Origin: a virus
Virus record (IMG/VR): IMGVR_UViG_3300007640_006547
Location: 1-64,000 of that record
Reading direction: 5' to 3' (one strand)
DNA length: 64,000 bases
How positions within the stretch are numbered: the stretch's first letter is position 1; every line of letters starts with the position of its first letter. Both the position numbers and the translations under genes were made by a program. Shown piece after piece: positions 40,793-64,000 of the stretch. Below the pieces are notes generated by a model, which was not told the DNA's origin, ran no database searches, and saw only the letters and a list, made by a program, of their open reading frames with translations.

Positions 40793-40800
40793 TATTTATA
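40793..40800 (-). promoter_or_regulatory. T4-late promoter box, TATAAATA
   Basis: A perfect late consensus on the minus strand overlapping the stop codon of the fibre gene at 40796, driving 40767 and 39849. This is the clearest sign that the phage uses T4-type late transcription. Confidence 0.65.
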
Positions 40801-42319: not shown

Positions 42320-42327
42320 TATTTACC
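42320..42327 (-). promoter_or_regulatory. Late-type box, GGTAAATA
   Basis: The TAAATA core is kept on the minus strand, 27 nt before the ATG at 42292 in a 34-bp gap between fibre genes. Weaker than the box at 40793. Confidence 0.35.
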
Positions 42328-44165: not shown

Positions 44166-46228
44166 TAAGAACCTCCTGTGTAGATAATAAACTCAACTGT
44201 TGTATATGGACTGGTATGATAATATGGTGTATTTTGTATATCATTCATTGATCCTGTCCTATCAATTCCTGTGCCTGTTGTTGTTCCTGTAATATTTTGA
44301 GAACTTGCACCTGTATCTGTGCCACCTGTTACGTTTGTTACTCCATAGTATTGCTCGCCATTATCGCCTTGCATACTATGTGTGTGATCTGGTAATTGGG
44401 CTTGTGTGATATTGTGAGATTCGCTACCACCTGTTAAACCTACTGTATTAGCAGCAGCATCATTCAAAACCCTGTTTCCGCTTGTAGCTGCACCTAAGTG
44501 TCCTAGTAAATGTCTACCTCTAAAATCAGGTAAAACAAAAAAGTCTGGCGTGCTCGGTGTTCCGTATAAATTACCTATAATAGCATATAAAGGTTCATAA
44601 TCGCCGCCTCTAGCTAATTCTTGTCCGTGACATAACTCCCAACCAGTTGGTGCTATTGTTCCTGCATAGGGCATAATCATTCCCAACGCAAACACTGGAA
44701 TAGTGCTGACAATTTGTGCTTGCGTCATTTTGCGCAAACCTTCTGAATTATACACTAAAAATTGATCTGTTGGTGCCACTGCTACTGAAATTGCAGTTTG
44801 ATTTGTAAGGAAGTTTGGATCTATATTAAGTGTCCACTCTTTGGTTGTGCCGCCTACTTGTCCGTCAAATTGCACACTTCCTGTTGCAGTTACATCTCCG
44901 GCGCTGTTAAATTGGAATGTTGTAGGACTTGACAGTTTGCCTGCTGATTGAGCACTGCCGCTTACATTTCCTGTTACATTTCCTTCTAAATTTCCGTGAA
45001 AAGTATTTGCATATACATGTGCATATTTTAAATTAGGTAATCCAATACTATTAGCTAAATTTGTATAAGGTTGTATATTATTAGCATAAATTGAACCAGT
45101 GTTATTAGTATCATTTAGGTTGAAGTAAGCATCTCCGCCAACATTGATATCTTTAGAAATACCAACTCCGCCTGCGGTGTTAATTGCTCCGTCTGTTGTG
45201 TTACTACTATTCAACGTGCTAGTTGAAATAATCTTTGTTGCTTTTATATTTCCTGTTACATCAAGTGCTTCTTCAGGAGATGTGTTTAAAATTCCGTGTT
45301 TGCCGTCAGATGCAATATACAGAGATGTTTGATTTGCTCCGCTGTTATTTGTGTTAAAATTAATAGATCCGTCTGTAGCTTTGTTTCTGATTGTAATAGA
45401 CGATCCGGTCACGCTGGCTGTTAATATGCCATTTTCGCCAATGGTTAATCCAGCATTGCTAGAGATTCGTTGTTCTTTTGTAAATCTATTTATTACATCT
45501 AATCTCGCAATATCTCCGTAGACTAAACTGTTATTACCACTAGCATCAACTAATGCTTCGGCTTTTTCACTTGTGCCGTAATATTTTGCTTTTGCACCAC
45601 TAAATATTGATTCTGTTGGAATATTAACACCAGGCTTCATCACATAACCTGTAGGAAATCCTGTAACCTTGGCTTTTGGTGTAAATTCAACATAACTATA
45701 AACTGCAATAATATTATTGTTTACATAATTAATCAATACTGTGTGATTTGTATCAGTGCCAAGCAGTGTGCTTGTGCCAATGAGGGTTTCAATTTTTGCA
45801 CCTGTTGCAGTAGACTCACTATAATCTGGACCAATTAAAACCCAGCCACTACCACTGTAAATGTATGCTTGTAAATTTGCTGTATCTACCCAGATGTCGC
45901 CAAGTATACTTGCACTTGCTTCTGGTTGTGAGGCTGCTTTTTTGATGCCGCCTGCTGCTACCCATGCTGCACCATCGTATACTTTCAGCTGATCAACGCC
46001 TGCGGTTGTATCATACCAAAGTTGTCCTTCTACAGGACTACTAGGTGCAGTAGTATTTGCAAAATTTTCTAAAAGATGCAAAAAGTTTTCATTGATATAA
46101 GCACCATAACCAGACAGATTCTGCCCTACTAATTTTAAACTTGTATCTGTAGAATTTAGGCCATTTTCTTCAACTGTAAGAGAACCTTTATTAATTAAAT
46201 CTGTAAAGTTTATGGTATAGTCTGCCAT
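44165..46228 (-). CDS. Tail-fibre-like protein with phage tail collar domain
   Basis: The 687-residue protein has the shared N-terminus ('LVGQNLSGYGAYINENFLHLL', 'GQLWYDT', 'GDIWVDTANLQAY'). Residues ~510-570 are a phage tail collar domain: 'GMIMPYAGTIAPTGWELCHG', then 'YAIIGNLYGTPSTPDFFVLPD' in part, ending FRGRHLLG. The tip has 'LPDHTHSM' and 'PYYHTSPYTTVEFIIY', typical of collar-fibre tips. The short fibre of T4 (gp12) has the same collar, so this is the best candidate for a gp12-like receptor-binding role. Confidence 0.85.
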   Translation of the reverse strand: MADYTINFTDLINKGSLTVEENGLNSTDTSLKLVGQNLSGYGAYINENFLHLLENFANTTAPSSPVEGQLWYDTTAGVDQLKVYDGAAWVAAGGIKKAASQPEASASILGDIWVDTANLQAYIYSGSGWVLIGPDYSESTATGAKIETLIGTSTLLGTDTNHTVLINYVNNNIIAVYSYVEFTPKAKVTGFPTGYVMKPGVNIPTESIFSGAKAKYYGTSEKAEALVDASGNNSLVYGDIARLDVINRFTKEQRISSNAGLTIGENGILTASVTGSSITIRNKATDGSINFNTNNSGANQTSLYIASDGKHGILNTSPEEALDVTGNIKATKIISTSTLNSSNTTDGAINTAGGVGISKDINVGGDAYFNLNDTNNTGSIYANNIQPYTNLANSIGLPNLKYAHVYANTFHGNLEGNVTGNVSGSAQSAGKLSSPTTFQFNSAGDVTATGSVQFDGQVGGTTKEWTLNIDPNFLTNQTAISVAVAPTDQFLVYNSEGLRKMTQAQIVSTIPVFALGMIMPYAGTIAPTGWELCHGQELARGGDYEPLYAIIGNLYGTPSTPDFFVLPDFRGRHLLGHLGAATSGNRVLNDAAANTVGLTGGSESHNITQAQLPDHTHSMQGDNGEQYYGVTNVTGGTDTGASSQNITGTTTGTGIDRTGSMNDIQNTPYYHTSPYTTVEFIIYTGGS

Positions 46229-46230
46229 GA

Positions 46231-46839
46231 TTACCCCTCAATTCCGCTTAAACTTTGAATTCTTACAGTATAATCTACTTGTATCAAACGGTTTAAACTT
46301 TTTTGCACTGGATGGAATATAACATGTGTAATCAATCTTCCAGTTCCGCTTGCACTATAACTACGTAAACCTAATTCATCAAATACATATAAACTGTCAT
46401 TGCTGCCAGCAGTATCAAACGCATCTTGTCCTGAAGGTTCTCCGTAGTCTAACAAGCATCTAACTAATATATCAGTATAATTTGTCCCACTAACATGTCT
46501 AATTTCAGTTTTGTTTCTCGCTGGATCAGTGTTGTTAACACTGCGTTCATCAACTACTTTTGTAAATGTTTGATTATACAAACTGCTGTTTGTGCCTGTG
46601 CTGTTTGGTGTTAAGTATGTCACAATACCTGTTGGATCAACACTGGTTCCACCGTTGCCAAAACTCATTTCATAAACAAAGCCTTCGCCTTGGTTAGCAA
46701 GACTTTCTGCTAATGCAATACTCATATTTTCATAATGAATAGCATTGCGTTTGTTCACATAAATTTCGCCGCTATCAGGGTCAGAAATTTTTATGTGTCC
46801 TTCAACATGTATTCCATTTAGATCATTAAACTGTGTCAT
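46231..46839 (-). CDS. Virion structural protein, baseplate-associated
   Basis: The 202-residue protein ('VEGHIKISDPDSGEIYVNKRN', 'SLANQGEGFVYEMSFGNGG', 'LGLRSY') lies between the giant protein and the fibres, the place of gp8 in T4 order, but it is much shorter than T4 gp8 (334 residues). Similar small structural proteins occur here in T4-like cyanophages. AAGG is upstream and an AATAAATA box lies 18 nt before the ATG. Confidence 0.75.
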   Translation of the reverse strand: MTQFNDLNGIHVEGHIKISDPDSGEIYVNKRNAIHYENMSIALAESLANQGEGFVYEMSFGNGGTSVDPTGIVTYLTPNSTGTNSSLYNQTFTKVVDERSVNNTDPARNKTEIRHVSGTNYTDILVRCLLDYGEPSGQDAFDTAGSNDSLYVFDELGLRSYSASGTGRLITHVIFHPVQKSLNRLIQVDYTVRIQSLSGIEG

Positions 46840-46857: not shown

Positions 46858-46865
46858 TATTTATT
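46858..46865 (-). promoter_or_regulatory. T4-late-type box, AATAAATA
   Basis: Seven of eight match on the minus strand, overlapping the end of the giant gene and 18 nt before the ATG at 46839. Confidence 0.5.
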
Positions 46866-49800
46866 TAGGTAGCTCAATTGTTGCTCCGCGAATAAATTTT
46901 GCTATTGGTGAAGAACTGGTTCTAAGTGTTTCATTTGGTTGAATCCATCTTCTTCCAGTTCTTTTCACTACTCTTATTTCTGTGTTTACAGCAGGAGTTG
47001 TAGTAAAGTTTATACGTTTTTCTCCTGATACATCTACTACTGTAAACTCTTGTGCTTTAACTTGATCGCCTTCGGTGCTGTCTTGTGCTATAGTGTTGTT
47101 GTAAACATTAACATCAACTTTACTTAACTTTTTACCACCAACAAACACCTCAATTTCGTTTATGTTATCAAATGTAAATCCAAGATCTACAATTTGACTC
47201 GAACCATCTGCAAAATCTCTATATACATCATATGTGTCTTGGTAGTCAATTGTTTCTCCTGGACCTTGACCAAATGCTCTATCGCCTGCTTTGTGCAAAC
47301 TCTTAACACCTGTTCCTAATGTTCCTCTGCGCAATTGAGATAATGTATTTCCTTGGACTGAAAAATATTCAATACGTTCGCCATCAATCCAAAGTATACC
47401 TGGCAGGTTTTTAAGTGTGTTTGGTTTCTGTATTCCAGTTGCATCATCAAGTAGAATAGAGTTGTCATATACTTGCAAATCTTTTGCTAATACGTAAGAG
47501 TTTTCTTGGTTTAACCGCTTGTAATGTGTTCTACCAAGCATGTCTCTAAATATTCTAAAACCAAAACGCTTACCTGATACTGCATTAGTCCAATGTAAAA
47601 CTTGTATTTTATCATTAGCAGCAGGAATTTCGTTTAATCTTACTGCATCAAGTTCTTCCATTACTTCGTAATCAATCAAAGGACGTAGTAATTTTTTATT
47701 TTTTACTACCCATACATATTGCGCTCCAGCTGCTTGACTATCAAGTTCGACAATACCACTTGTTAATAAATTACGTCTGGTATATTCAGAAGTAAATTCA
47801 TTTACTACAGTGTCAGTTAAAACGTCATAACTGTATCTTCTAAATTTGTTAACATCATGATTACTAAAATGCATTACTCTATAAGTTGTAAATGCCCCAT
47901 TGTATTTGTCTGGATCTATACTTATACTGTCGCTTTCTATAAATTCTATATTTGCAATTTTCATTTGCGTAGAATCGTTTGTTACCCAAAAATCTTCGTC
48001 TGCAACAAATTCATCTCTAATTTGTCTTGCCATTCCTTCAACAACAACTACGTTATTTGATACTGATTTTACAATCGGATTAAAAACAGTAGAAGAGGCT
48101 GTGCTAACTAATTTTAACGGCTGGCCTACTGTTACTAACGGCTCCATATTAATTGTTGTGCTACCATCTACCTCTGTAAATTCTATTTGTGTATCAATAA
48201 AGTAATAATCTGCATTATTGATTACATAGATATCTAGTTTTGTTCCTGCTGGTGCTATGGTATTTGACAATATTGTAATTCTTGCACTTGTTTGATCCCA
48301 TGTCCAATATTGTCTGTCAACTCTTACATCGTCTGCATATACTAAAATGTCACGACTATTAATTTGTGTCAAGTCTGAAAATGCCCAGCTATCTAAATCG
48401 TATACTCTATCAGTTGTTGTAGTATATCTGATACTGTAACCAGGATCTAATATTTCATCGTCACCAAAAACGATCAAATTATGACCTAAAGGTTTTACAT
48501 TAAATGGTGTAGGCGTATTGGTAAAGTTCCAATAATTTCCTAATGTTTGATTCCATGTTATATCTTGGTATACTAGGCTATAACTTACAATATTTGTATC
48601 ATACACAGCATATTGTATAATGTTATTTTCTCCAAGTCTCACACGACCGCCTGGAAATTCGATTGTAATTTTGTTTGCTGCTTCTGTTGTGCTATCGCTA
48701 ATGTTTAAGAAATAGTCGCTACCTTCTGTTGCAACACGGCCGTTCATAACAACAATTGCACTAGCATCACTGCTGAAGTCAGCTGCTGTTACAAATCTCC
48801 AATTTTCGCCAACTGGTTGATTTGCAATATCATAAGAGTTGAGTTGTATTGTTTTAGAATCAATTAAATTGTTACCGTTGGATCCAAATGTCATAACAGT
48901 AATACTATCGCCAGTTTCTATATTTTCATCGCTATCAATAAACACTGCATTTAAATCATAATCTGAATAAAATACATCTTCTCTTAAAACTTTTTGATTA
49001 ACCATTACAACAACATTTGTTTCTCCAAATGGTTTTTCAGGAAACTCAAACTCTCTTGTAGATCCATCATAGATATAATTAGCAACAGCAATGTTTGCTA
49101 ATCCGTTATTAGGTCTTGTATATACTTGTAAATCAAGTGTATCTGTAACTGTGCCAGGAACAAGTTCTTCAGGACCTTTGCTGTTGGTTGCTGAAAAGAA
49201 TTCATCGCCGTCTACTACAATTTCTCCACTTGGTATGCCTGTGGCAGTAGTTTTATCAAGAGCGCCGCCTGACAAACTGGTGTCAAAATTTGTGCTTACA
49301 GGAGATAGAGATCCGTCACTTTCTTCTTTTCTAATAATTACTTCATCACCATCTGTTGTAGTAAATATACCTTGTATATCTATTTCAATTTGCTCACCGT
49401 CGCCTACAATTGTAGCCATTACAGCATTTTTGTTGGCTGTAGCAGTGCTGCCATCATATGCAGGGTCGTCTAACCTTACACCGTTTAGATATATGTTGTA
49501 ATTTACTCCATTTTCTAGAGGTTTTGAAAGTGTGATTGTAGCAGTGCTACCATCTAATTTAATTACTTCGTCACTAAATGTGTTATCAAAAGTGTCCCAA
49601 GGCAAATCACTAAATCCGCCGGCGCCAAATCCTTGTTCATTACCAAAACCAAAACTATCGTATAATGCACCTTCGTATTCAACACCTTGCATTACTTGAC
49701 TTAATTCTTTGCCAGGCATACCTGTAGTAGGATTGTATTCATACAACACTCTGTCGGCAGCATGAAGCAGACTGGTTGCTTTTTTGTAATTTACAACAAT

Positions 49801-52800
49801 CACATCATCGATTGCAGGATCTTTTACAAAATTAATATACCCAAAATACCTATCATAACCTTTTGTAGTATCAAGATCATTGCCAACTTGATATTCGCTT
49901 TTCAACATCTCAACACCATTTACTGTGACACTAAATGTATCTGTCTTTACATTCATTGGCCACAACAATTGGAATTTTTGTTTTGCGCCTGTTCCTAAAA
50001 AGTTTTCTTTTTGGTCAATAGTCTCAAAATATTTTTTACCACTAACTCTGTCAAATTTTACAGTCATGTGTGTGCTTCTTACCAAAGGATTACCAATAAT
50101 TACACTTGCTTTTACTGGACTACCGTCTGGATCTTGATTGCCACTTACTGTTACAGTAGGAGCAGATAACACTCTGTTGCCTTTTTTAAGTATTTCAATT
50201 GATTTAACTTTGCCTTTAGCAATATATGCTCTCGCAGTTGCTCCACTATTTCCACTAATAGTAACATCTGGTGTATTGTTAAACCCACTGCCTCCGTCTA
50301 AAACTTCAATACTAACTATTTCGTATGTATTGTTATCTACCCAATTTTTGTATGGATACGTAAAATATTTTTGCCACAAATCTGTAACTTCATTGTTTGA
50401 AAATTTAGCAACACTAGGAGTAATATTTCCTCCAATGTAGCTAGGTGGTAAATCAAAGTCAGATATCAAACTATTGGTAGGTTCAATTTTTTCGTATGAA
50501 CTTATGTATTCTCTAACACTAGTTTTATAAGGCTTAACTTCGTTGATATAATCTTGATAATTTTCAAGATTGTCATTTTGATATGCAACTTTTTGTTCCA
50601 ATTCTCCAACATTATGTTTTGCTCTTAAGAAACTTGATTTAAATACCCAATCAACATTTTCCTGTTCAGATAGTGCATATCTTACACTTGCAAAAAATAG
50701 TTTATTGTATTCTACAGCCAATTCGCCAATAAAAATATCAGTTTTAATAGCATTTAATATATTTCTTAATTCATTAACTGGTTCTCTATCATAAAATGCT
50801 ATATCATATACACCAGCATCATAACCAGTAGTTTCTGTTGAATAATTATAAATTAAGCTAGACAATTGAATTGTGCCATTTTGTCTGCCTACAGTTTTGT
50901 AATTAATTGTATAATCTTCAGTGTCTTGGTTGTCTATTTTTTCTAACAGAAGCCAGCCGCCTGTTCCAATATTTTTTATTTTAACAACATCACCTATTGT
51001 ATTATCTAATCCGAATAATTCATAACTAGATTCTATTGTTTGGTTAATTATTGTGTTTATTGAATAACCAGTAGCGTAATAATCAGCATAATTCCAATAC
51101 TTGGTTGTATCAAAACTTTGGTTGTCTGTTCTATTCCATTCTCTAGAAGTAGGATTGTAAACATATATGCTCCAACGTCCGCCAATTGTTTCATCTGCGT
51201 TTACTAATACACTGAATTCTCTTACTTTTAAAATTGTGTTAGACGAATAATCAAAACCTTGTTCTTTAATTTCAACACTTGTAATTTGTCCATTACTGTT
51301 TATTGTTGCTTTAAATTCAGCATTTTTACCTGTGACATCATCAAATTCAATTTCAGGAGCAACTTTATATCCGTTGCCTGCATTATTAATAATTACGTCG
51401 GTGATTTTACCGTCAACAATCACAGGTGTTAAAACAGCTTGTGTCTTTTTTGCAGTTCCTACAAATTGTAAATCATTTACAGTATCAACTGCAACATCGT
51501 GTTTTCCTAAAGACAATAAAGGTGCTGGATCCACTAATAATAATTTGCTTATATTATAATTATCTACTATAATATTTTTCAAAAATACTGAGTTGACTCT
51601 ATCAACAAATTGTTTTACAGCTTCTATTCTATTTACAAACATACTCTGTCTTGGAATATTTAACAATCCGTATTTTTTAGCAACTTGTAAATTTTCATCT
51701 GGAACTGAGTTGCCTATGTTATCATATCCAATTAAACTATCAATCCATTTTTGTTCTATGTCTTTGCTTGGCATAGAAACATCTAAACCTTCTGTTAATA
51801 AATTATACTCGTAATGTATAGGCACATTCAAATCTACATCTTTTTCTTTTCTAAAATGTAGTATTGTATTTCGACCTTCAATTAAACTTGCAGTGTTATA
51901 CATTGCAAATTTGTTATTTTCTAGTATACTAATAAATCTATAACCTGTTGAGGCAGGATCTCTGATTAAGTTAGTTACCGATTCACAACTTAAAATACGC
52001 CCTGGAACATTAGGAACAATTTGCGTATTTCTTACCCAGTAAAAATATTTTGTTATAAATCTTTTTCTAATAGCATCATAAACTTGCTTGCTACTAAACA
52101 CTTCGCTACCGTATAGAGTAGTGCCAGTTACACCTCTTGCATAACCTTCAGTTGTGCCAGCTAAGTCGTCCCATTCACTTGGAAGTAAATCTGACGATAC
52201 CCATTCACAAACTTGTATTTGTGCGTTAGGCAATAATTTATGGAACACACCTGCTCTATAATTGCTGTTACCTTGATAAGGATCAAACCAACTTGCTTTG
52301 CTAATATCCCACCATAGTTTTCCAACATATCTATCTGTCCAGTTTGAATATGCATCTACTGTAACATCTTGTTCGCCTGTGCTAAAAGAATATACTGCTG
52401 GATCATACCAAGTTTTAAATGTAATTTCTTGTTCTGCTGGACCTGCAATTTTTCCTTGTCTTGGATCTATAACATCTAAACGTTGTATAATATCTTTTTT
52501 GTCATCGCTATACAAAAATACCTGTTGTAGTTCTTGTATTTTTGGTTTTGAAACTTGACTTGTTAAAATAGTCCAGCTATCTTTTCCTTTAGTAAAACTA
52601 AAATCAGCTAACAATCCTTGGTTAACACTATTTACATATTTAGAATTTCCTGTGGCTGGATTGTCTGCTTCAAGGGCAGTAATAGTTGGCATATTCAAAT
52701 ACAAATGATTTTGATTAAATTTAAAATCGTCAAGCACATGATTGGATGTATCTCTTTTATATGCTATATCTTCTCCGTAAACGTAGGTGTTGTTGATTAG

Positions 52801-55800
52801 TTGGAATACTACAATTCTGCCTGTATCTTGTATAGTTTTTGATATTCTTGTGTTACCATTGTCAAGTTTTAATTGATTGTTATCAAAACCTGTAACTTCA
52901 ACTAAATCACTGTTTTTACCACAAATTGCAAGTTTATTACCGCTAAAATCAACTGCACTTCCGAATGCTTCATTTTTATCTTTATAAGGACTTCTAACAT
53001 TTTGCGACAGAGTATACAAATCATCTGACTGCTGCTTATACAGGTATACTGTGCCAGCATCATTTGATATATCATCGTTGTATGGTGCTGCTACAGCAAT
53101 ACGATCACCGTCGTCATTGATAGCAAAGTCTACACCCCAGCTTTCTCTTTTTGTAGTATCTGCTTTTATTTCTTGTATATATTTCCATCTATCGACTGGT
53201 TTGTTATAAACACTAAGAGTTCTAACACTACTTACATCAGACTCAACAACAATTTTATCTCCATTGTCATTTACGTCAAATTTAATGCCAAAATTTGATT
53301 CGCCTGTATCAGAGTCACCGTCTAATTCTTGGTATCTATTAGGAATATATCCGGTGTGTTCTATATCTTGTGCTGCAATCCAACTATTTGTATCTGTAGG
53401 TAATTTATCATTAACAGGAGTTGTTAGAGGAATTCTTTCAACAAGTGCTTGATACAATGCACCTTGGTAGAAAACTATATCGTTTTCTCTATATTTTTCA
53501 TTTACATCAAACACACCTTTGTAGCTTCTATTTCTCGTCCACTTCCATTCGTCGTCAAATTCAAAGAAATAAACACGACCTACGTCAATACCAGGAGCAC
53601 TAACATACAATTGATGTATACCATTTATATTTTTTCTTAATTCTACTTGATAACCAAATTGTTCTTCTGCATTTGGATCAGGACTACACATAACTATGTC
53701 TAAGGTATACTCTCTTGTAGAATCATCAAACTTGTAAATATGAACAATACCTTGATTACTCAATCCTGATGAATTTCCTACACCAGCAGGAATATAATAT
53801 GCTGGTTCCCAATCATTACTGTCGCTATCAGAAATAGTGCTACTATCGCTATAACTGTCATGCCAGTTGCTTACAGCTTGTTTGGCTCTCCATAGTGTGC
53901 CTCTGTCAACTACTATATCGCCTTGGTCGTATGCTTCAGTTGGATCATAAGTGCCTTTAAATTGTGTTAACGCATTATCAGCTCGTGGTGCACCAACTGC
54001 AATAAATTTACTATCTGGTGAAATTGCAACACTTGCACCGTATCCAGAATTTATGTCAGCTTCTTGTTCTGGTTCAAAAATTGCTCCTGCAGAATATGTA
54101 AAACTTTCTGCATTTCTAATCAGTAAAGATACTTTGCCTATTCTTGTAGATGACGTGTCGGTGCTGTCACCTCTAACAAGTGTTGTGTTTCCAAAGTTAA
54201 TGTCATATGATTCCGCTACACGGTTAAGCTGTGAATCTAAATTTGCATATTCTTGTTGTAAACTAATTACACTGTTATTTTCGTATACACTGAAAATACC
54301 TTGTCCGTTATCGTCTACCCAAAGTCTGTCAGCTGCATCTTTTTGTATATCTTCAATATTTAAATTTAGTGTTTCAAAGTCAGCAAATCTTCTTGTTACA
54401 AATCTACTTAAACTTGCGCCGCCGGCTGCTGAAAAACTATCATCAGGATCTTCAAAAGAAATTTCAATTTCACTTGATCCTAAATCAAATGTAATGTCAC
54501 TGCCTAATACTTCTGTTACTTTGTAAAATCCTTTTAAATTTGGAATACTAGAAAATATTCCTATAATATCGTCAACAGCAATATCGTCAACTTGTTTATC
54601 GCAATTTATTTTTACACCAGAATTACTCGACGCAAGTGTTAAATTTGTAAATCCTAGTATTTCTAAATCACTTTGACTGTGCTTTAAAACTGTCCAAGAT
54701 TGTTTGTCAGTAGTTACCCAAATGTGTTTGCCAATTTCTAAGTTGTCAATATCTATATTCAAAATAGAATCTTTAGATGTTACAATAAATTCTACATCCT
54801 CTGACCTAACATATCCTGAATTTTTTGTAAATGTATCCGTATTAGATATTACACTTGTTAATGTATGATCGTAATCTTCTGGCGATTTGAAAACTTGATT
54901 TTTAGCAATTTCATAAACTAAGTCAGTTCTGCCAATTGTAATATTGTTATTAAGTTCAAATAACTGCGGTTCAATTCTGTATTTGCTTTCGTCAAGTTTG
55001 TATTCAATTTCTTGAATATTATCAATTGCTCCGTATTGTCCAGCTCTAATTGCCCATTCTTCATATAGCTCAACACTGTCTTTATTAGAAGAACCTAAAG
55101 CATCAAACAACTTGGTCATAGCATTATTTGTGCCTTTTTCTTGTATAAATCCTTGATAAAATTTATATTGGCTCACATTATCGGTAATAATATTTTCTAA
55201 ATATTGACGTTTTTGATAGCCAATTAAATGCTGTGCTAAACGTTGTTGTTCTGTGTCAAAATTATCTGTATCTAAATCATAAAAATCTGCAAACTGATTA
55301 ACTTTATAATCCCAGTTTGGATAAATTTGCGATACAGGTTTTTCAGATAGTCTACGCCATTTTGTATTGTCAAATGTTTGTTTAGAACTATGATTTCCAA
55401 ATGCACTATAATAAAATTCTTTGTATTTTACTACATCGCCTATACGATAATCTGTGTTTTCTCGCCAATCAACAATTTTTGCTTCATCATAAAAAAATCC
55501 TGGTATACTCAAACTACCAGTCCAATTATCTGTTCTATACCCTACAAGTTTGATACGTTCTTGTCTAAAGCCAGCTGCTTTATCAAAAATAACATCATTG
55601 AATACTGTTTGATTATCAATCAATACCACATGTTCTTTTTGCACTAATGGTAATTTAATTAAGAATATACCTTCCGGTGTGCCAACAGGATTAATTGTAA
55701 ATTTTGTATCTTTGTCTCTAAAAATATTTGTTAAACTACTGTCTATTGCATTGCCGTTTCCGTCTAATATAGATACATCGTAAAAATTATCATATACATT

Positions 55801-58800
55801 ATCAATAGTAAAATTGTTTTTTGAAAATGTAACTCTGTTAGCAGCAGGACTAATGGCTAATACTGTATCATTGTCCCAGTTTTGTGTGGTAAAGAATAAA
55901 AACTCTTTTATTAGTAGCAGCATGTCTTCTACTTGCCCACTTTCAGGATTAATGTTTTCAAAGTTCCAACCGTCGTCTTTTAAGTATGCTTCATACCCTA
56001 ACAGGAAGTCTACAACGTCTTGTTCTGTTTTGTAAATCTGTCCGTAAGGAACACTTGTAGCAGTTTTGTTGAATCTTCTTCTAATAACGCCGGTTTTACC
56101 TCCTTGAACAGGAAGCTCTGCTAACTTAGTAAAATTTTTATTTTCAAATTCATTAGAGCTTACATGAGAAACTTTTGCTCTATAAAATTCATTGTTGTAT
56201 TTTACAACTGTGCCAATTGTGTATGTATTAGACTCGCTCCAGTTTAAGAATTTTTCACTAATTCCTCCAACATTAATAGCACTATCACTTTGTGTTTCTA
56301 TATAAGGATAAATTGTAAATGAAGGATTTTGATTGTCATAACCTTCTATAATATATCCACTATCGCTCACTGTAATCAAAATGCCACTAAGTGTTGCAAC
56401 TTGTTGAACTGAAGAAGTATTTAAAAATATTTGATAATTTTCTTCTGGAACAAATACGCTGGTTTTATTCAACGGACTTCTGCTGTCAAGTAACAATTTC
56501 AATTTATTTTTTTCAGCAAAGCCGGCTAATTTTATGCTTAATTGATTGTCTAGCCTTTTTAAATCTGACTGATAAGAATCATAACTAGATGACACTGCCC
56601 ATTTCACATAATTTGCTATGTAATTTATTAAACCAGCAGTAAAATGTTGTTTTGATTCATTGCCAGTGAGTGTGGGAAAAATTATATCTTTTGTTGTAAT
56701 AGCTTGTCCAGTTTCATTGTAAACAAAATTGCCTGCCATATCTTTGATAATTCTACTTCTATCAAAACCTAATCCAAAAACTTCACATGGCTTACTTACA
56801 ATCCAAGCCTTTAGTATAGCAAATCTATAATCACTGCTATTTCTAAATGCACTTTCGGTTGGTCCTTGATCTCCGTAAACAAAAGGCTCGCTTGTAGAAG
56901 GTAGATAAAATCCTTGTGCTATTCCGCTATCCAAAGGTGAACGTAAATTTCCATTTTCGTCAGTAGGAATAATAGACAATAAATTTGGACGTTTATACTT
57001 GTCTAATGTCTTTACAGATTTGCCAGGTTCTTTTACAAAACCGTCACGTAAATCTTGCCATAGCACTGTATTACTTAGAGTGTATGGCGCAGGACCATAA
57101 ACATCTTGCCACCATGTAGGCTCAATTGAAAAACCTAGCATTTCCCAAGGATGTGTATGCGGACGGTCTGTATCATAGAACTGTTTAAAGATTGCACGCC
57201 ACCCACCTGGTAATCTATTGCCATCTGCATCTGACATGCTTCTATAATTAAATGTAAAACTATTTTCGCCGCTCCAATTTGTATTTTCAGTATAATTTGG
57301 ATTTCCAGCTGTGCTTAACCATGAACTAAAATCTTCAAGAATAAGGCTATCAATTGTTTCTCTACTAACACCTGTCTTTCTATTAAATCCACCTATAAAA
57401 TCATGAATATCTAAATATTCAGTGTTATAAGATGTTTTAATATTGTTGTAAATTCTTTTTTCAAGATCTAATAATAGTTCATCTCTATAATCATCAAATC
57501 TTACAGTATAACTTCCATCATGTCCAACAATAACATCAACATTTCCATTAGCACCTGTAATTGTTTGGAACTCTGGTTTGTATAACGGATACAAACCTAA
57601 TTTAGTTGGTGTAGGTGGAACATAGCACCCGTTTGTGTTTTCATATTCATATACAACTATGTCTTGTCCTATTGTTGGATTATAGTATTTTATAAATCCA
57701 TTTTCAAAATCGTAATCTACACCTTGATATTTTTGTTCGCCGTTAACATAAACTAAAACTGCTTTGTTGCTGAGAGTTTTCAAATCAAAGTTTGTAAAAC
57801 TTGTAGGCAAATATGCTGTTTCGTCATATTCTATTTCATGAATCGTTTCTGTAGTTGCATTCATCGGAATCATATCAGATGCAAAAAACGGCATACTTGA
57901 TGTTTTGTCTTTGTTCAAAGTATTCATTATCAAGTCAACATGTTTTTTGGTATCTCCATGAAATCCAGTTTGGTTTGCTGTAAAAAGAAAGCTACTTTTA
58001 AATCTGCTGTATTCTTTCATAGCAAATTGAATAGATTTAATTATGTTTGCATCCTTATCTACCAAATGATATGCTGCTAAATTTACAGGTCCGCTGTGTT
58101 TCATAAACTGCGTTCCGTATTGAGTAATGTTTGATAAATCTCTTAGGTTTGTATTTCCAGGTATACTACCTTGTGCTACTGGATGATAATTTTCAACAAT
58201 ACTGTTAACATGTTTGTTTACTTCACCGAGTGTAAATGTTGTAAGATTTTCATTTTGTGGATTGCTTTCCAAATTCTTTGGTATTTCATAATATCCATTA
58301 ACGTTTTTGTTTGCAGAACTATAACATTTTAAAACTACAATACTTTCACTATCTAAATTATTAAAAAATCTTACTTGTTTGTATTTTACAGTGTTATCTA
58401 ATGTGTAATCAACACCTTCAATTTTCTTTTTGTTGTTGACAAAAACTCTAACCACTAGATCATCGAGTAAATGACTATTATCAAATACATCTACAGGAAA
58501 ATTATTTAATTGTCCGTTATATTGTCTAATAACAGGTTGTCTTGATTTAAAATATGTTTTTTCCCAGACGCTTTTCCATTTATAACTGCCGTCTTGGTTA
58601 AAGATTTTGAAGAAACCACTTGAAGTATTTTTTTCTACAATATTTTGAGAACTGTCTTGATAGGTAAATTTATCGGTGTGATAATTAAAATCAAAAACAA
58701 TATCACCAAAATTGTTAATACTTTGGTATTTCAACGGAAATCCAAGTTCTACATCGTTAGAGCCGCTTCCTTTTGCATAAGAAAAAAGTTTTGTCCCTAT

Positions 58801-60612
58801 AAAACTTGTTCCTACATACTGTGTAGTATCGCCATAACTATATGCATTTGAATCAAATAAATCAAAATGAGGTTGTTGATTTACAGATGTTTTTTCTTGA
58901 GCTTTATTCCATTTGTTATTTGCATAATGGAACATCTTTCCAGCATTAACATTACCTTGAGAAACTAATACAGTATCGCCTTCGTTTGGAATAGTATCTG
59001 CTTCTTCAATTAAAGTTATTTGTCTATTTTTTATTGTGCCTGTTCCAAAGTTAATAAATTTTACTTTATAAATTTTTCCTGCAACAAGTATGTCTTTGTC
59101 AGCTGTGAACAATAATCTCATGCCATCTGTGACTTCAACACCATCAATAATGTATCCACCTTTTCCTTCAATAGTGCTAAAAACATCAGTTGTAAACGTA
59201 TCTATTAGATCAACATTATCTTTTGCAACAGCACCATGATTATATAATTTTAAACCAGATGTATACTCAATAATTGGACGCTTGGCTCTAGCTTCCTCGT
59301 CAATTTCTACAGGTAACCCTGCTTGGTTATAACTTTCTACAATAACATCCCTATGGAACCATCTGTTATATCTTGACCACGGGTTTTTATCTGGACTACC
59401 TCTGTTGATTGTGATATAATCTTTTTGTGCAACAAAAGCAGCAGCATCTTCATAAGGATATTCGTCAAAGCCAAATTCCTCGCCATCAAATGGAACATTT
59501 TTTACTGTTGTAAAAGGAACTGGAATTTCTAATTCTGTTTCTGGTATCAATCTAATAGAAGACCCAACTCCTTCAACAAAATAATTTCCTGTTGCATATT
59601 TTTTTGGAGTTACCTCGCCTACAAAAAAGATACGCTGACCATTTGATAAATTTCCACCAATTGGAGATTGATATGATTTTTTACCTATAATTTCATCTTC
59701 TACATTAATTTGAGAATTTTCATTTATGTTATAAAAGTTAAGCAATCCATTCATATTTGCATTGTTTTTACTTGCATAATATAAAAGTGGTGGAACTGTA
59801 TCGTCTGGAGTAAATTCAATACGGCCGTTTTCAATCCATACATCGTCTGTTTCAATGTATGCACCGTCTTGATTTCTTTTGTATCTTTTGATATTTGTAT
59901 TGTAAATTGTGCTGATATTTTCTGCATCAATTTCTAAAAGAGGATCATTATCTTGATATGCAATATTTGTTACAAAAGAAATAGGTTCACCTGGAGTGTT
60001 AATATCAAATTTATAAGTTTGACCTTTATATAATTTTAATGTTGGATTTTTTGTTATTCCATCTGGAGAAAAAACATAGCTTTGTGTTTGATCGTCGGTT
60101 CCCAACTCAACATTGTAAACACTGGTTATACCTCGTTGAGATCCACTAACAGCAACCGGAATTGGACCAAGTGGCAGCCAATAATATTCTCTAAAATTTG
60201 TAAACTTATCAAAATCAATGTGCGGATTCCAACTATAACTTGTTTGTGAATTTAGCACACTGTGATTGTTCACACTACCTTTATATGTTTTTATAACACC
60301 TAATAGATCTGTATATGAAGAATAAAAATTAACATTACCTAAATCATCTTTACTTACAATACTAGATTCAAACTGATAGTTTTCTCTATCTGTAGATACA
60401 TCAGGTAAAAAAGTATCTGTAACCTTTGCTGTAGGAGAATTTCTTCTTCCTACATATGCATCTAATTTTTCGATTACACCTTCAGAAATCATTGAATCAA
60501 TGGTTGACTGAACAAACTTATTGTTTGTATCTGTTCTAAAATACCTTGGTAACAAGTTTTTAGCTGATCTGTCTGAATCGCCAATTGGCAATGGATAATC
60601 AATACTTTCCAT
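46861..60612 (-). CDS. Giant baseplate/tail protein in the gp7 position
   Basis: This single frame encodes 4583 residues. The N-terminus ('SDRSAKNLLPRYFRTDTN', 'TDRENYQFE', 'WNPHIDFDKFTNFREYYWLP') is of a type I know from very large T4-like cyanophage baseplate proteins next to gp6, where T4 has gp7. T4 gp7 has only 1032 residues. Visible modules: four carbohydrate-binding (CBM5/12-like) units near residues 1460, 1725, 2225 and 2370 ('Y..GD.V.Y...FY.A...'); FG-GAP-like beta-propeller blades over about 2190-2600 ('VAISPDSKFIAVGAPR', 'NDDGDRIAVAAPYND'); and paired 'G.GY...P.(V/I)' units near 3065 and 3435. Start ATG overlaps the gp6 stop as TAATG. The role beyond baseplate is inferred. Confidence 0.85.
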   Translation of the reverse strand: MESIDYPLPIGDSDRSAKNLLPRYFRTDTNNKFVQSTIDSMISEGVIEKLDAYVGRRNSPTAKVTDTFLPDVSTDRENYQFESSIVSKDDLGNVNFYSSYTDLLGVIKTYKGSVNNHSVLNSQTSYSWNPHIDFDKFTNFREYYWLPLGPIPVAVSGSQRGITSVYNVELGTDDQTQSYVFSPDGITKNPTLKLYKGQTYKFDINTPGEPISFVTNIAYQDNDPLLEIDAENISTIYNTNIKRYKRNQDGAYIETDDVWIENGRIEFTPDDTVPPLLYYASKNNANMNGLLNFYNINENSQINVEDEIIGKKSYQSPIGGNLSNGQRIFFVGEVTPKKYATGNYFVEGVGSSIRLIPETELEIPVPFTTVKNVPFDGEEFGFDEYPYEDAAAFVAQKDYITINRGSPDKNPWSRYNRWFHRDVIVESYNQAGLPVEIDEEARAKRPIIEYTSGLKLYNHGAVAKDNVDLIDTFTTDVFSTIEGKGGYIIDGVEVTDGMRLLFTADKDILVAGKIYKVKFINFGTGTIKNRQITLIEEADTIPNEGDTVLVSQGNVNAGKMFHYANNKWNKAQEKTSVNQQPHFDLFDSNAYSYGDTTQYVGTSFIGTKLFSYAKGSGSNDVELGFPLKYQSINNFGDIVFDFNYHTDKFTYQDSSQNIVEKNTSSGFFKIFNQDGSYKWKSVWEKTYFKSRQPVIRQYNGQLNNFPVDVFDNSHLLDDLVVRVFVNNKKKIEGVDYTLDNTVKYKQVRFFNNLDSESIVVLKCYSSANKNVNGYYEIPKNLESNPQNENLTTFTLGEVNKHVNSIVENYHPVAQGSIPGNTNLRDLSNITQYGTQFMKHSGPVNLAAYHLVDKDANIIKSIQFAMKEYSRFKSSFLFTANQTGFHGDTKKHVDLIMNTLNKDKTSSMPFFASDMIPMNATTETIHEIEYDETAYLPTSFTNFDLKTLSNKAVLVYVNGEQKYQGVDYDFENGFIKYYNPTIGQDIVVYEYENTNGCYVPPTPTKLGLYPLYKPEFQTITGANGNVDVIVGHDGSYTVRFDDYRDELLLDLEKRIYNNIKTSYNTEYLDIHDFIGGFNRKTGVSRETIDSLILEDFSSWLSTAGNPNYTENTNWSGENSFTFNYRSMSDADGNRLPGGWRAIFKQFYDTDRPHTHPWEMLGFSIEPTWWQDVYGPAPYTLSNTVLWQDLRDGFVKEPGKSVKTLDKYKRPNLLSIIPTDENGNLRSPLDSGIAQGFYLPSTSEPFVYGDQGPTESAFRNSSDYRFAILKAWIVSKPCEVFGLGFDRSRIIKDMAGNFVYNETGQAITTKDIIFPTLTGNESKQHFTAGLINYIANYVKWAVSSSYDSYQSDLKRLDNQLSIKLAGFAEKNKLKLLLDSRSPLNKTSVFVPEENYQIFLNTSSVQQVATLSGILITVSDSGYIIEGYDNQNPSFTIYPYIETQSDSAINVGGISEKFLNWSESNTYTIGTVVKYNNEFYRAKVSHVSSNEFENKNFTKLAELPVQGGKTGVIRRRFNKTATSVPYGQIYKTEQDVVDFLLGYEAYLKDDGWNFENINPESGQVEDMLLLIKEFLFFTTQNWDNDTVLAISPAANRVTFSKNNFTIDNVYDNFYDVSILDGNGNAIDSSLTNIFRDKDTKFTINPVGTPEGIFLIKLPLVQKEHVVLIDNQTVFNDVIFDKAAGFRQERIKLVGYRTDNWTGSLSIPGFFYDEAKIVDWRENTDYRIGDVVKYKEFYYSAFGNHSSKQTFDNTKWRRLSEKPVSQIYPNWDYKVNQFADFYDLDTDNFDTEQQRLAQHLIGYQKRQYLENIITDNVSQYKFYQGFIQEKGTNNAMTKLFDALGSSNKDSVELYEEWAIRAGQYGAIDNIQEIEYKLDESKYRIEPQLFELNNNITIGRTDLVYEIAKNQVFKSPEDYDHTLTSVISNTDTFTKNSGYVRSEDVEFIVTSKDSILNIDIDNLEIGKHIWVTTDKQSWTVLKHSQSDLEILGFTNLTLASSNSGVKINCDKQVDDIAVDDIIGIFSSIPNLKGFYKVTEVLGSDITFDLGSSEIEISFEDPDDSFSAAGGASLSRFVTRRFADFETLNLNIEDIQKDAADRLWVDDNGQGIFSVYENNSVISLQQEYANLDSQLNRVAESYDINFGNTTLVRGDSTDTSSTRIGKVSLLIRNAESFTYSAGAIFEPEQEADINSGYGASVAISPDSKFIAVGAPRADNALTQFKGTYDPTEAYDQGDIVVDRGTLWRAKQAVSNWHDSYSDSSTISDSDSNDWEPAYYIPAGVGNSSGLSNQGIVHIYKFDDSTREYTLDIVMCSPDPNAEEQFGYQVELRKNINGIHQLYVSAPGIDVGRVYFFEFDDEWKWTRNRSYKGVFDVNEKYRENDIVFYQGALYQALVERIPLTTPVNDKLPTDTNSWIAAQDIEHTGYIPNRYQELDGDSDTGESNFGIKFDVNDNGDKIVVESDVSSVRTLSVYNKPVDRWKYIQEIKADTTKRESWGVDFAINDDGDRIAVAAPYNDDISNDAGTVYLYKQQSDDLYTLSQNVRSPYKDKNEAFGSAVDFSGNKLAICGKNSDLVEVTGFDNNQLKLDNGNTRISKTIQDTGRIVVFQLINNTYVYGEDIAYKRDTSNHVLDDFKFNQNHLYLNMPTITALEADNPATGNSKYVNSVNQGLLADFSFTKGKDSWTILTSQVSKPKIQELQQVFLYSDDKKDIIQRLDVIDPRQGKIAGPAEQEITFKTWYDPAVYSFSTGEQDVTVDAYSNWTDRYVGKLWWDISKASWFDPYQGNSNYRAGVFHKLLPNAQIQVCEWVSSDLLPSEWDDLAGTTEGYARGVTGTTLYGSEVFSSKQVYDAIRKRFITKYFYWVRNTQIVPNVPGRILSCESVTNLIRDPASTGYRFISILENNKFAMYNTASLIEGRNTILHFRKEKDVDLNVPIHYEYNLLTEGLDVSMPSKDIEQKWIDSLIGYDNIGNSVPDENLQVAKKYGLLNIPRQSMFVNRIEAVKQFVDRVNSVFLKNIIVDNYNISKLLLVDPAPLLSLGKHDVAVDTVNDLQFVGTAKKTQAVLTPVIVDGKITDVIINNAGNGYKVAPEIEFDDVTGKNAEFKATINSNGQITSVEIKEQGFDYSSNTILKVREFSVLVNADETIGGRWSIYVYNPTSREWNRTDNQSFDTTKYWNYADYYATGYSINTIINQTIESSYELFGLDNTIGDVVKIKNIGTGGWLLLEKIDNQDTEDYTINYKTVGRQNGTIQLSSLIYNYSTETTGYDAGVYDIAFYDREPVNELRNILNAIKTDIFIGELAVEYNKLFFASVRYALSEQENVDWVFKSSFLRAKHNVGELEQKVAYQNDNLENYQDYINEVKPYKTSVREYISSYEKIEPTNSLISDFDLPPSYIGGNITPSVAKFSNNEVTDLWQKYFTYPYKNWVDNNTYEIVSIEVLDGGSGFNNTPDVTISGNSGATARAYIAKGKVKSIEILKKGNRVLSAPTVTVSGNQDPDGSPVKASVIIGNPLVRSTHMTVKFDRVSGKKYFETIDQKENFLGTGAKQKFQLLWPMNVKTDTFSVTVNGVEMLKSEYQVGNDLDTTKGYDRYFGYINFVKDPAIDDVIVVNYKKATSLLHAADRVLYEYNPTTGMPGKELSQVMQGVEYEGALYDSFGFGNEQGFGAGGFSDLPWDTFDNTFSDEVIKLDGSTATITLSKPLENGVNYNIYLNGVRLDDPAYDGSTATANKNAVMATIVGDGEQIEIDIQGIFTTTDGDEVIIRKEESDGSLSPVSTNFDTSLSGGALDKTTATGIPSGEIVVDGDEFFSATNSKGPEELVPGTVTDTLDLQVYTRPNNGLANIAVANYIYDGSTREFEFPEKPFGETNVVVMVNQKVLREDVFYSDYDLNAVFIDSDENIETGDSITVMTFGSNGNNLIDSKTIQLNSYDIANQPVGENWRFVTAADFSSDASAIVVMNGRVATEGSDYFLNISDSTTEAANKITIEFPGGRVRLGENNIIQYAVYDTNIVSYSLVYQDITWNQTLGNYWNFTNTPTPFNVKPLGHNLIVFGDDEILDPGYSIRYTTTTDRVYDLDSWAFSDLTQINSRDILVYADDVRVDRQYWTWDQTSARITILSNTIAPAGTKLDIYVINNADYYFIDTQIEFTEVDGSTTINMEPLVTVGQPLKLVSTASSTVFNPIVKSVSNNVVVVEGMARQIRDEFVADEDFWVTNDSTQMKIANIEFIESDSISIDPDKYNGAFTTYRVMHFSNHDVNKFRRYSYDVLTDTVVNEFTSEYTRRNLLTSGIVELDSQAAGAQYVWVVKNKKLLRPLIDYEVMEELDAVRLNEIPAANDKIQVLHWTNAVSGKRFGFRIFRDMLGRTHYKRLNQENSYVLAKDLQVYDNSILLDDATGIQKPNTLKNLPGILWIDGERIEYFSVQGNTLSQLRRGTLGTGVKSLHKAGDRAFGQGPGETIDYQDTYDVYRDFADGSSQIVDLGFTFDNINEIEVFVGGKKLSKVDVNVYNNTIAQDSTEGDQVKAQEFTVVDVSGEKRINFTTTPAVNTEIRVVKRTGRRWIQPNETLRTSSSPIAKFIRGATIELPK

Positions 60613-63600
60613 TAGTAACTGCTTCCTCCGCTATTAGAACTACTACTTGTTGTAGTCACAACTGTTTCTGATGAACTAGATACCGCTTGACTTGTATCGT
60701 TAACAGATGTTACAATTGCTCCACTTGCTTTTAGGCGTTCTGCTGTAATTGCTGTAATTATTTCAACATTATCTACTGTTGCACCACTTATAAATATTTC
60801 ATCATTTTCAGACTTTACTTCAAATAAACTTCCAAAGCTATCTGTAGCACTGTTTGGAACTAAAACAATACTGTGTAAATCAGGTGCTAACGACTGCATA
60901 ATATATGCACTAAGCTCACTCCAGTAAAATGTTTCTCCAAAATTCCAATTTTCTAAAGCAAAAAATTCTTCTATTGCTTCGATAATTTTACTTTTTACAT
61001 CTTGATCGTTAACTACTCTGTCTGTGTTTTTTACAACTTTTAAAGTTGCTTGCAGACTTGGAGTTGCTTTTGAACCAAACAAAACTTTAAACTTTACTGG
61101 ATGATAAACAATTTCATCACTTATACTTTTTATTTTGTTTATTTCGCCGCCATAAGTTCTAAATAACTGATCACTACTCATTGGTAATGGCTCGGCAGCA
61201 AATGCTCCAGCAAGATACTGTCTATAACTTGTATCATATTGTTTTGTTAACAAATATGTATCCATTATATTGCTACTACTTGGATCAATTCTATTGTTTT
61301 CATCGCTTGCATGTAAATATTGAAATTTCAATCCTGCTCTACCCAAGTAACCTTTATAGTTAAAAATCAATTGTCTTGTTCTTGCTGTGCTGTTGACCTT
61401 GTAAAAAACGTTTGTTGAAGACACATAAAAAATAGGATCTCCTGGTGTTGTAACTGTTGCTTCTACTTCACTTGTTACTACTCTAATGTTTTCTGCGGCT
61501 GCATCTACATAATAGTAAAACTCATTATCGTTTGTAGATTTTTTAACAAAAACATATTTAGATTGTGACGAATTATTGTTAGCAGTGATATCTTCAAATA
61601 TTTGAGGATTGTCTACTACACCGTCGTCGTCATTATCAAAAAATACAACTTCAACTTTTTTACTGTTTACGTATCCAATACCGTCTCTGTATTCAGCACT
61701 TACTGCCCAATCATAATCGACTGTGAACGGTGTTAATTGACCTGTGCTGGCAAGATTCTTGTTAATATTTAAAATGCTTATTTTGTCTCTTACAATTTCA
61801 CTTGTTTTACTATCGTAAATCTTTTTAGTAGAATCATAAAAGAATCTTACTTCCTTGTCGCTTTCAAACACATATCGTAATGTCCTCGATGTGATTGTGT
61901 ATTCAACTCCGTTGGTTTCAAATAAAACAAGCCAACTTCTATCTAAATTTTGCTGTGTAATGTCACCAGTTAACCCACTACTCCATTCTTGAGTAGTATT
62001 AACATTTTCTTGTGTCACTACTGCCCAACGTCTTGTGCTTGTGTTGTATCTTAGCGCAACAGTTCTGTATGCAAATATTTGATCTACTAAAACACTTTTT
62101 ACATCATCAATTAAATCTCTAACAAACTTTGGTTTGATTTTATTTAAAATTGCTCCTGTAGGAATAATATCATTAAATGTAATACCACCTAGACCTGATG
62201 CAGACAGTTCATTACCGCCGTTATTCACAGCAACTACTTTTACCCATTTGTAACTACTAGATCCTGCGTGATCTGCTGCTCCTAACATCAATGTTCCATC
62301 AGGCATAAAATGCTGGCCTGTTGGCGCAGTAAATTTGACCAACGCTCCTGGTTCTAAATATCTAAATACACCTTCTGTAAAGCTGGAAACAGTATACTTG
62401 AATGCTGATGTATCGCTTGCATTTGAACTATCAACAATAAATCCAGTGCTTCTATTTGTATCCTTTGTAGTTTGTTGCCAAACTACGCTTAAATCACTAT
62501 AATCTTGATCTGTAAACTTATCATAATAATAATTGCGCAAATTGTTATCTTCGAGTAGATTAGTAACAGTGTTGTTTATTACACCTTCAATATCAGTTTT
62601 TGTAACAAAACTAAAATTTGTTTTTTCTGTTTTATAATCTTTGTAAATAACTCCGTCGGTTCCAAACATATTTGTAGTGCTGTATTTTCCTGTGCTATCT
62701 CTTAAATCATAATATCTATTAATACCACTGCTGGTTCTGTTTACTGCTTTTGCTTTGATAATATCTTGACTTACACCCAACGGACCTAGGTTATAATCCT
62801 CACCTGTGATTAATCTGTTTTGAGTGTAGTATGTGCTAGGTGCATTGTCACGTATACTATCTGTTGATTCTGTGCTTGCGCCATTGGTAACTGGTTGCTT
62901 TAGGCTGCAAACTATTGATAAAGTTTCGTTGCGTCCAATACCAGAAGTATATGGAATACTGACTTTGATATTTTGTATATTATTTGCAAAAATAGTATAA
63001 TCTAAATTTGCACTTGTTCTATAGTAAGCTCTAAAATTGCCTTTAGGTAAATTACCAAAAACACCATCGCTAAAAATTAAACTAATTCTATCATTTGTTC
63101 TAGTTAACACACTGAAAATATTTTTTATATTTTTTGCAATGCTATTATAAATTACATTATTACCTTCAACAGCATCAACTTTTGTCCAAGCAGTTTCCTC
63201 AACTCCTTGTGAATTTAAACTGTATAACCATACGTCACTGTTGTTTACATTTGTTGCATCTATTTCTACATTTTGATTAGGTGTGGGTAAACTTACCGAA
63301 AAGTCACCTCGTTGTAGTGTTCCTTGTCTAAAGTGTAGGAAAAATCCTGTGTTAGAACTACCTGCGCCTTGGCCGTTGTCTCTATATAACAAACTGAATT
63401 TGTTTCCTGTCAACGGCGCTTCTTCAATTATTTCACCATTGTCGATATCAGCACCAACAACTTCAAAATCTAAATTTGTGCCGTTAATAACTTTGTTAAA
63501 ACTGAACACTGGAAATGCAGATTGTAAATTATTAAGTTTATATTTTTCTGTTGGAATACCATTGACAATGTCAGACTTACGAGGAGAACCAAACTGATTT

Positions 63601-64000
63601 TGATCAAGCATTGCTGCATTCATAATTTTAATAAATTGTTCATACCAATTACTATTTGTTTGATCATTCCATTTTACAGACTTACCCGAAATGTTGGTTC
63701 CTGTTGTGTCAACAATATTTTCTGTTGTCGTCACGCTGTCTATTTTGAGTAATCCGTTGGCAGTTTGATTTCTTGTTACATTATAACTAATAAGTCTTGC
63801 TAATCTTAAAACACTTTCTCTACGCTCTGCTAATTCAATAAAATTTTCTCTAGCATTTAGATCAACCCTAAAGCTAATATTTTGGCCAAGGAATGCAATT
63901 AAATCAATCAAAGATAGGTATTCAGAACTTTCAATATAATCATTAAAATCTTCTGGATAATTTTGTCTAATATAATTGATCATTGTTCTACGTAGATTGT
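60612..64000 (-). CDS. Baseplate wedge protein gp6-like (partial at the window edge)
   Basis: An ATG at 63983 gives 1123 residues, but the frame stays open to the window edge ('NLRRT' before that Met) so the true start is probably outside. The sequence 'DFNDYIESSEYLSLIDLIAFLG' followed by 'VDLNARENFIELAERRESVLRLARLISY' (quoted in parts) matches my memory of gp6 proteins of T4-like cyanophages. The C-terminus has the gp6-type 'WNFGETFYWSELSAYIMQ' and ends in a Ser/Thr-rich tail. gp6 joins wedges into the baseplate ring. The following gene, overlapping as TAATG, is in the gp7 position. Confidence 0.85.
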   Translation of the reverse strand, partial: NLRRTMINYIRQNYPEDFNDYIESSEYLSLIDLIAFLGQNISFRVDLNARENFIELAERRESVLRLARLISYNVTRNQTANGLLKIDSVTTTENIVDTTGTNISGKSVKWNDQTNSNWYEQFIKIMNAAMLDQNQFGSPRKSDIVNGIPTEKYKLNNLQSAFPVFSFNKVINGTNLDFEVVGADIDNGEIIEEAPLTGNKFSLLYRDNGQGAGSSNTGFFLHFRQGTLQRGDFSVSLPTPNQNVEIDATNVNNSDVWLYSLNSQGVEETAWTKVDAVEGNNVIYNSIAKNIKNIFSVLTRTNDRISLIFSDGVFGNLPKGNFRAYYRTSANLDYTIFANNIQNIKVSIPYTSGIGRNETLSIVCSLKQPVTNGASTESTDSIRDNAPSTYYTQNRLITGEDYNLGPLGVSQDIIKAKAVNRTSSGINRYYDLRDSTGKYSTTNMFGTDGVIYKDYKTEKTNFSFVTKTDIEGVINNTVTNLLEDNNLRNYYYDKFTDQDYSDLSVVWQQTTKDTNRSTGFIVDSSNASDTSAFKYTVSSFTEGVFRYLEPGALVKFTAPTGQHFMPDGTLMLGAADHAGSSSYKWVKVVAVNNGGNELSASGLGGITFNDIIPTGAILNKIKPKFVRDLIDDVKSVLVDQIFAYRTVALRYNTSTRRWAVVTQENVNTTQEWSSGLTGDITQQNLDRSWLVLFETNGVEYTITSRTLRYVFESDKEVRFFYDSTKKIYDSKTSEIVRDKISILNINKNLASTGQLTPFTVDYDWAVSAEYRDGIGYVNSKKVEVVFFDNDDDGVVDNPQIFEDITANNNSSQSKYVFVKKSTNDNEFYYYVDAAAENIRVVTSEVEATVTTPGDPIFYVSSTNVFYKVNSTARTRQLIFNYKGYLGRAGLKFQYLHASDENNRIDPSSSNIMDTYLLTKQYDTSYRQYLAGAFAAEPLPMSSDQLFRTYGGEINKIKSISDEIVYHPVKFKVLFGSKATPSLQATLKVVKNTDRVVNDQDVKSKIIEAIEEFFALENWNFGETFYWSELSAYIMQSLAPDLHSIVLVPNSATDSFGSLFEVKSENDEIFISGATVDNVEIITAITAERLKASGAIVTSVNDTSQAVSSSSETVVTTTSSSSNSGGSSY

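Follow-up and report, generated by a model that had tools for sequence, protein, structure and literature searches.

The window analysed here is a stretch of 64,000 nucleotides from an IMG/VR virus record of 76,109 bases (IMGVR_UViG_3300007640_006547), and its most prominent element is a single open frame on the minus strand (46861..60612) that begins with ATG and comprises 4583 codons. The initial annotation had described a protein of this length, and the frame is indeed uninterrupted and found whole in other contigs: three of them (L085, L086, and L088) carry 4589-codon stop-to-stop frames of the giant protein with a best-segment identity of 100%, and a fourth (L087) carries an intact matching frame with a best-segment identity of 92%. 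As the frame is intact in these contigs, an assembly accident is unlikely. Nothing but size would speak for a misassembly or for missed stops that fuse several genes, lengths of 3323–6436 aa are usual in this family, and we regard the probability of such an artefact as negligible; the intact copies led us to reject it. The features of the locus are the following:

46861..60612, minus strand: giant virion protein in the gp7 position, 4583 aa (match to phrog_10938, 1064 bits)
60612..63983, minus strand: gp6-like wedge subunit, 1162 aa, start at record base 64100 (phrog_10646, E 9e-287; phrog_219, E 3e-24)
46231..46839, minus strand: conserved 202-aa neighbour (phrog_11259; tblastn matches in the PA5oct, 121Q, and SCTP-2 regions)
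54913..60612, minus strand: conserved scaffold part 1, residues ~1–1900 (occupancy mostly 0.9–1.0, with a dip to 0.73 at 201–250)
49063..52515, minus strand: conserved scaffold part 2, residues ~2700–3850 (occupancy mostly 0.93–1.0)
56104..56244, minus strand: CBM5/12-like unit 1, residues 1457–1503, in the scaffold (Pfam E 1.5e-7; partly self-built family HMM E 7.6e-20)
55330..55470, minus strand: CBM5/12-like unit 2, residues 1715–1761, in the scaffold (Pfam E 1.7e-4; partly self-built family HMM E 3e-21)
55042..55155, minus strand: KGT core motif, residues 1820–1857, the sole stretch with a match to a broad gp7-core profile (hhalign E 0.0014; score above those of all 50 shuffled controls)
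52696..54273, minus strand: predicted integrin-alpha/FG-GAP-type beta-propeller, residues 2114–2639 (AlphaFold2; Foldseek E 7e-11; VIA Z 31.0)
53788..53952, minus strand: CBM5/12-like unit 3, residues ~2221–2275, inside the propeller (Pfam E 3.5e-3; strand pattern of the model)
53368..53511, minus strand: CBM5/12-like unit 4, residues ~2368–2415, inside the propeller (Pfam E 1.3e-4; strand pattern of the model)
51223..51420, minus strand: paired beta unit A, residues ~3065–3130 (GNGYKVAPEIEF at 3079)
50128..50325, minus strand: paired beta unit B, residues ~3430–3495 (GSGFNNTPDVTI at 3441)

The gene upstream of the giant matches the T4 gp6 profiles phrog_10646 and phrog_219 and extends beyond the window, with its start 100 bases outside. 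In transcription order, the locus starts with a late sigma factor, encoded on the opposite strand, which is followed by a phrog_12050 structural protein, a wedge protein of 99 aa, another structural protein, a hub/lysozyme of the gp5 type, a lysozyme, a wedge protein of 146 aa, the gp6-like subunit, and the giant. PHROGs label the 99-aa and 146-aa proteins merely "baseplate wedge subunit", and we take them to be gp53 and gp25 by comparison with phage CBB, in which the genes follow each other in this way as gp53 (CBB_242), gp5 (CBB_240), gp25 (CBB_238), gp6 (CBB_237), and the structural protein CBB_236 (PMC5259590). The order in T4 is 53, 5, 6, 7, 8. With homologues of gp6, gp25, and gp53 thus located, gp7 would be the remaining core part of the wedge. 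Downstream of the giant lie the conserved 202-aa gene and then fibre-like genes, one of which codes for a protein (44165-46228) whose residues 516–572 form a Phage Tail Collar domain; this protein and those at 42327-44165 and 40796-42292 have N-terminal PHROG matches in common, which suggests a paralogous fibre set. No counterpart of T4 gp8 or gp10 was identified in this analysis, so that the giant may combine several functions, which tells against a simple gp7 equivalent. The window also codes for at least seven radical-SAM proteins, as judged by PHROG matches (9312-11499, 18247-19626, 29266-32723, and 33867-35252). In two of these (30227-31510 and 31503-32723), a SPASM domain lies N-terminally, ahead of the radical-SAM domain, which is the reverse of the usual order.

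The giant is one of a family of phage proteins that is conserved in the gp7 slot and whose members are components of the virion. Named homologues are PA5oct gp355 (YP_010678859.1, 3857 aa), 121Q gp582 (AIT14472.1, 3323 aa), and SCTP-2 gp140 (ASV44155.1, 3807 aa), which are 27–34% identical to the giant and alignable along most of the length. The genes of PA5oct gp355 and 121Q gp582 immediately follow a gp6-like gene, and such a gene is present at 85 of 89 homologue loci. In SCTP-2, the gene before the giant encodes a 3096-aa "beta-propeller repeat protein" (gp141, contig L004 782-10072, phrog_8401), and the gp6-like protein of the window had no tblastn match in the SCTP-2 region. PA5oct gp355 is annotated with ESI-MS/MS evidence. 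Virion proteomes also contain phAPEC6 gp245 (381.88 kDa, 17 peptides; PMC7247149) and CBB_236 (21 peptides; PMC5259590), whose genes adjoin that of a wedge protein, and their size and place suggest that both are orthologues of the giant.

The family is large. The C-terminal 2999 residues of the giant match 57 of 50,697 phage records, at least 591 relatives were found among the 598 pattern matches listed for viral contigs, and environmental contigs coding for a homologue number in the hundreds. Scans of viral contigs with the PA5oct and SCTP-2 proteins as queries gave no match. In a library of viral models, the best matches were other proteins of uncultured phages (E 1.1e-71, 31% identity). The initial annotation had pointed out that the protein is more than four times as long as T4 gp7, which is accurate (4583 versus 1032 aa, or 4.4-fold), and this size is ordinary within the family, as 30 of the 43 complete homologues, which range from 3323 to 6436 aa, are longer. 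The longest one that we met is encoded at 5616-24947 of contig L058. Giant gp7-slot proteins are already known from P-SSM2 (gp7) and ACG-2014d; that the giant is unique by its size was rejected, since it is exceeded by P-SSM2 gp7 and by many homologues. A CBM match in the family has likewise been annotated before, as one GenBank record names a homologue "chitin-binding type-3 domain-containing protein". Our literature search (gp7 propellers, CBM5 baseplates, and jumbo-phage integrin propellers) found no description of the family's modules, and some may exist.

Is the giant the equivalent of gp7? Gene order speaks clearly for the assignment to the gp7 position, and a core motif lends it weak support. 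The motif was detected with a broad gp7-core profile of 106 sequences, comprising marine and cyanophage gp7-like loci, P-SSM2, ACG-2014d, pf16, nACB2, and a T4 subset. The KGT region scored 27.3 over 37 columns against this profile, whereas the maximum of 50 shuffled controls was 21.3, and it was the best of nine segments of the giant; the overlapping segment 1500–1960 also stands out (E 0.0044), and segment 1200–1740 too exceeded all 50 controls, with a poor E of 0.071. T4-type gp7 alone (71 sequences) gave nothing significant in nine windows with hhalign, and against 15 narrow window pairs the best E of 0.038 was not significant. PDB sequence searches with the giant and its 121Q and PA5oct homologues had no match at E values up to 1. 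A model of the 121Q core (residues 1265–2464) had a moderate pLDDT of 67.9, and its best Foldseek E was 0.13, with none at or below 0.001, and every VIA Z was below 8; gp7 was absent from its matches, which excludes nothing. In the AlphaFold2 model of residues 1440–2639 of the giant, the KGT region ahead of the propeller is helical, with low confidence for this region. The KGT match may be read as a hint of homology to gp7 in a short motif, and it is this match, together with gene position, that suggests homology to T4 gp7.

The hint from the motif, the gene position, and the lack of any other gp7 candidate make the gp7/BW3 role the best reading, and we consider it probable that the giant takes the place of gp7 as the baseplate-wedge protein BW3 in a jumbo myovirus of the PA5oct/RaK2 type. 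It could also be a protein of the baseplate periphery or fibre network, whether similar to gp8/gp10 or a fusion, that just happens to come after gp6 and is not BW3. The very large size and the absent fold match to gp7 would suit such a protein, and function cannot be read from gene order alone; however, the adjacency to gp6 is kept across diverse phages, the KGT core matches the gp7-core profile, and no second gp7 candidate was present among the genes examined, which makes a purely peripheral protein unlikely. For BW3, heterotrimers of the form (BW2)2-BW3 with receptor-binding proteins on BW3 are described in the Milano paper, which states that such proteins also attach to BW3 in T4, A511, and the R-pyocin (PMC10811340). 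If the giant is BW3, its core at about 1740–1930 with the KGT motif would join two gp6-like subunits per wedge, as T4 gp7 does, the scaffold parts 1–1900 and 2700–3850 would form the large baseplate periphery, and the integrin-like propeller and its pair of CBM-fold units would be a dispensable module set inserted into the scaffold at about 1950–2700.

In the alignment of the 43 complete homologues, from which the occupancies above were taken, residues 1950–2700 and 4150–4250 are variable. The propeller sits in the most variable stretch of the giant; CBM-like units 1 and 2 are as conserved as the scaffold around them, with few gaps in the homologues displayed. Self-BLAST gave no internal repeats in the giant. 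The initial annotation had placed the modules in the middle of the protein (~1460–2600), which applies to the CBM-like units and the propeller; the paired beta units are present as claimed but lie outside this section. They are marked by the motif GxG[YF]..P.[VI], which occurs at residue 3079 and again at 3441, against an expectation of 0.01 in shuffled sequence.

FG-GAP-like blades had been proposed, and both a Pfam match of the whole protein to FG-GAP_2 (E 2.3e-6, above the cut-off) and structure prediction bear this out. An AlphaFold2 model of residues 1440–2639 (57 sequences, pLDDT 74.5) contains a full beta-propeller from residue 2114 on, for which the best Foldseek match was integrin alphaM (E 7.2e-11), and the VIA comparison gave a Z of 31.0 with an rmsd of 4.0 over 349 aligned residues. 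The model stops at residue 2639, and the domain may continue. Inspection of the sequence showed only partly acidic loops, compared with the Ca-binding DxDxDG loops of such blades. Two of the CBM-like units, 3 and 4, are carried by the predicted propeller.

The four postulated CBM5/12-like units all match CBM_5_12 when searched as isolated pieces, one strongly and three weakly, with unit 1 above and units 2, 3, and 4 below the Pfam cut-off; the whole giant matches CBM_5_12 in three stretches with an E of 1.3e-9. A family HMM detected at least two units in 40 of the 43 complete proteins, one in two (PA5oct and SCTP-2), and none in 121Q, a count that is partly circular, as the HMM was built from units 1 and 2 and misses units 3 and 4 of the window. 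Compared with solved CBM12 chains, the profile of units 1 and 2 matches Vibrio deacetylases (1.1e-8) and ChiA1 (1ed7; 1.6e-5) over the first ~34 of its 47 positions. Folds other than CBM or propeller would have spoken against the initial annotation; the predicted propeller is clear, and the CBM-like units match solved CBM12 chains by sequence profile.

The initial annotation went further and suggested that parts of the baseplate bind host glycans directly. For such binding by the CBM-like units and the propeller speak the recurrence of the modules (CBM_5_12 in 32 of 32 and FG-GAP_2 in 26 of 32 members in a Pfam scan that included the window), the profile matches to PDB CBMs of a chitin-oligosaccharide deacetylase and a chitinase, the location of the propeller in the most variable part, as might be expected of a receptor-facing module, and the retention of an aromatic residue (Phe) at the site. 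However, the CBM profile is matched over its N-terminal two-thirds only, and no Pfam CBM_5_12 match of the four units extends beyond position 31 of the 44 in the profile. Where the Vibrio deacetylase CBM12 has a Trp, this residue is replaced by Phe in 79 of the 81 aligned proteins for unit 1 and in 78 of the 81 for unit 2. This Trp is presumably the ligand or binding-loop residue, W687 of ChiA1. Detectable units are absent from 121Q and single in PA5oct and SCTP-2, with no known link to the host, and units 1 and 2 are conserved like scaffold. Furthermore, the profile of units 1 and 2 also matches residues 29–67 of the Milano tail spike gp124 (E 0.0032), which belong to the tail-binding module of the spike (PMC10811340). 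Direct binding of host glycans by the baseplate is thus unsupported, and we regard it as doubtful.

Judging from the sequences, the CBM fold is right and the classical site changed. The CBM-like units are at least as likely to serve structure or docking as to bind sugars, and glycan binding by them is possible. Most likely, the CBM-fold units and the propeller serve protein docking, to tail fibres or neighbouring wedges, or a weak surface contact, with no demonstrated lectin function. A bolder idea, to which we assign a low probability, is that the wedge protein in this branch of jumbo phages bears an exchangeable integrin-like adhesion head, a propeller with CBM-fold units in its loops that differ from phage to phage; recognition of the host surface, and perhaps the triggering of contraction, would then involve the body of the baseplate as well as the fibres. 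The variable propeller/CBM module is in any case the part to examine for host contact: should it attach to the host surface, the baseplate would bear an adhesion head, and if it does not, CBM-fold domains would serve as building parts of the virion.

In comparison with known systems, the closest named relatives differ in length and modules: PA5oct gp355, 121Q gp582, and SCTP-2 gp140 are shorter (3323–3857 versus 4583 aa), the 121Q protein is without CBM units and propeller, unlike the giant, and the PA5oct and SCTP-2 homologues have one detectable CBM unit each. The CBM5/12 domains of ChiA1 and the Vibrio deacetylase resemble the giant's units in the N-terminal two-thirds of the domain (profile E 1.6e-5 to 1.1e-8), whereas the C-terminal part is unmatched and the Trp of the C-terminal loop is Phe in units 1 and 2. 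The likeness to the integrin alpha-subunit is a predicted one of the propeller fold (Z 31) at 10–16% identity, and the giant is a phage protein with CBM-like inserts, so that function is not implied. With T4 gp7/BW3 (phrog_964; 1032 aa), the giant has gene order and a short putative KGT core motif in common, and no significant full profile or fold match was found. End-to-end homology to the cyanophage gp7 proteins was not shown, and the family-HMM matches listed for ACG-2014d were mostly repeat segments. The 5195-aa gp7 of P-SSM2 (contig L172 2506-18093) nevertheless occupies the same slot, is of giant size, and has a KG core motif and a weak CBM_5_12 match (E 0.0063), and the "structural protein" in the gp7 slot of ACG-2014d (contig L175 from 2730, a CDS of 20,454 bases) has a KG core motif and GxGY paired beta units, with eight motifs in the portion examined. 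Both cyanophage proteins have module types in common with the giants of jumbo phages. The unnamed giant "structural proteins" of PA5oct, the 121Q/RaK2 group, and SCTP-2 are thereby tied to one slot of the baseplate, together with the giant cyanophage gp7.
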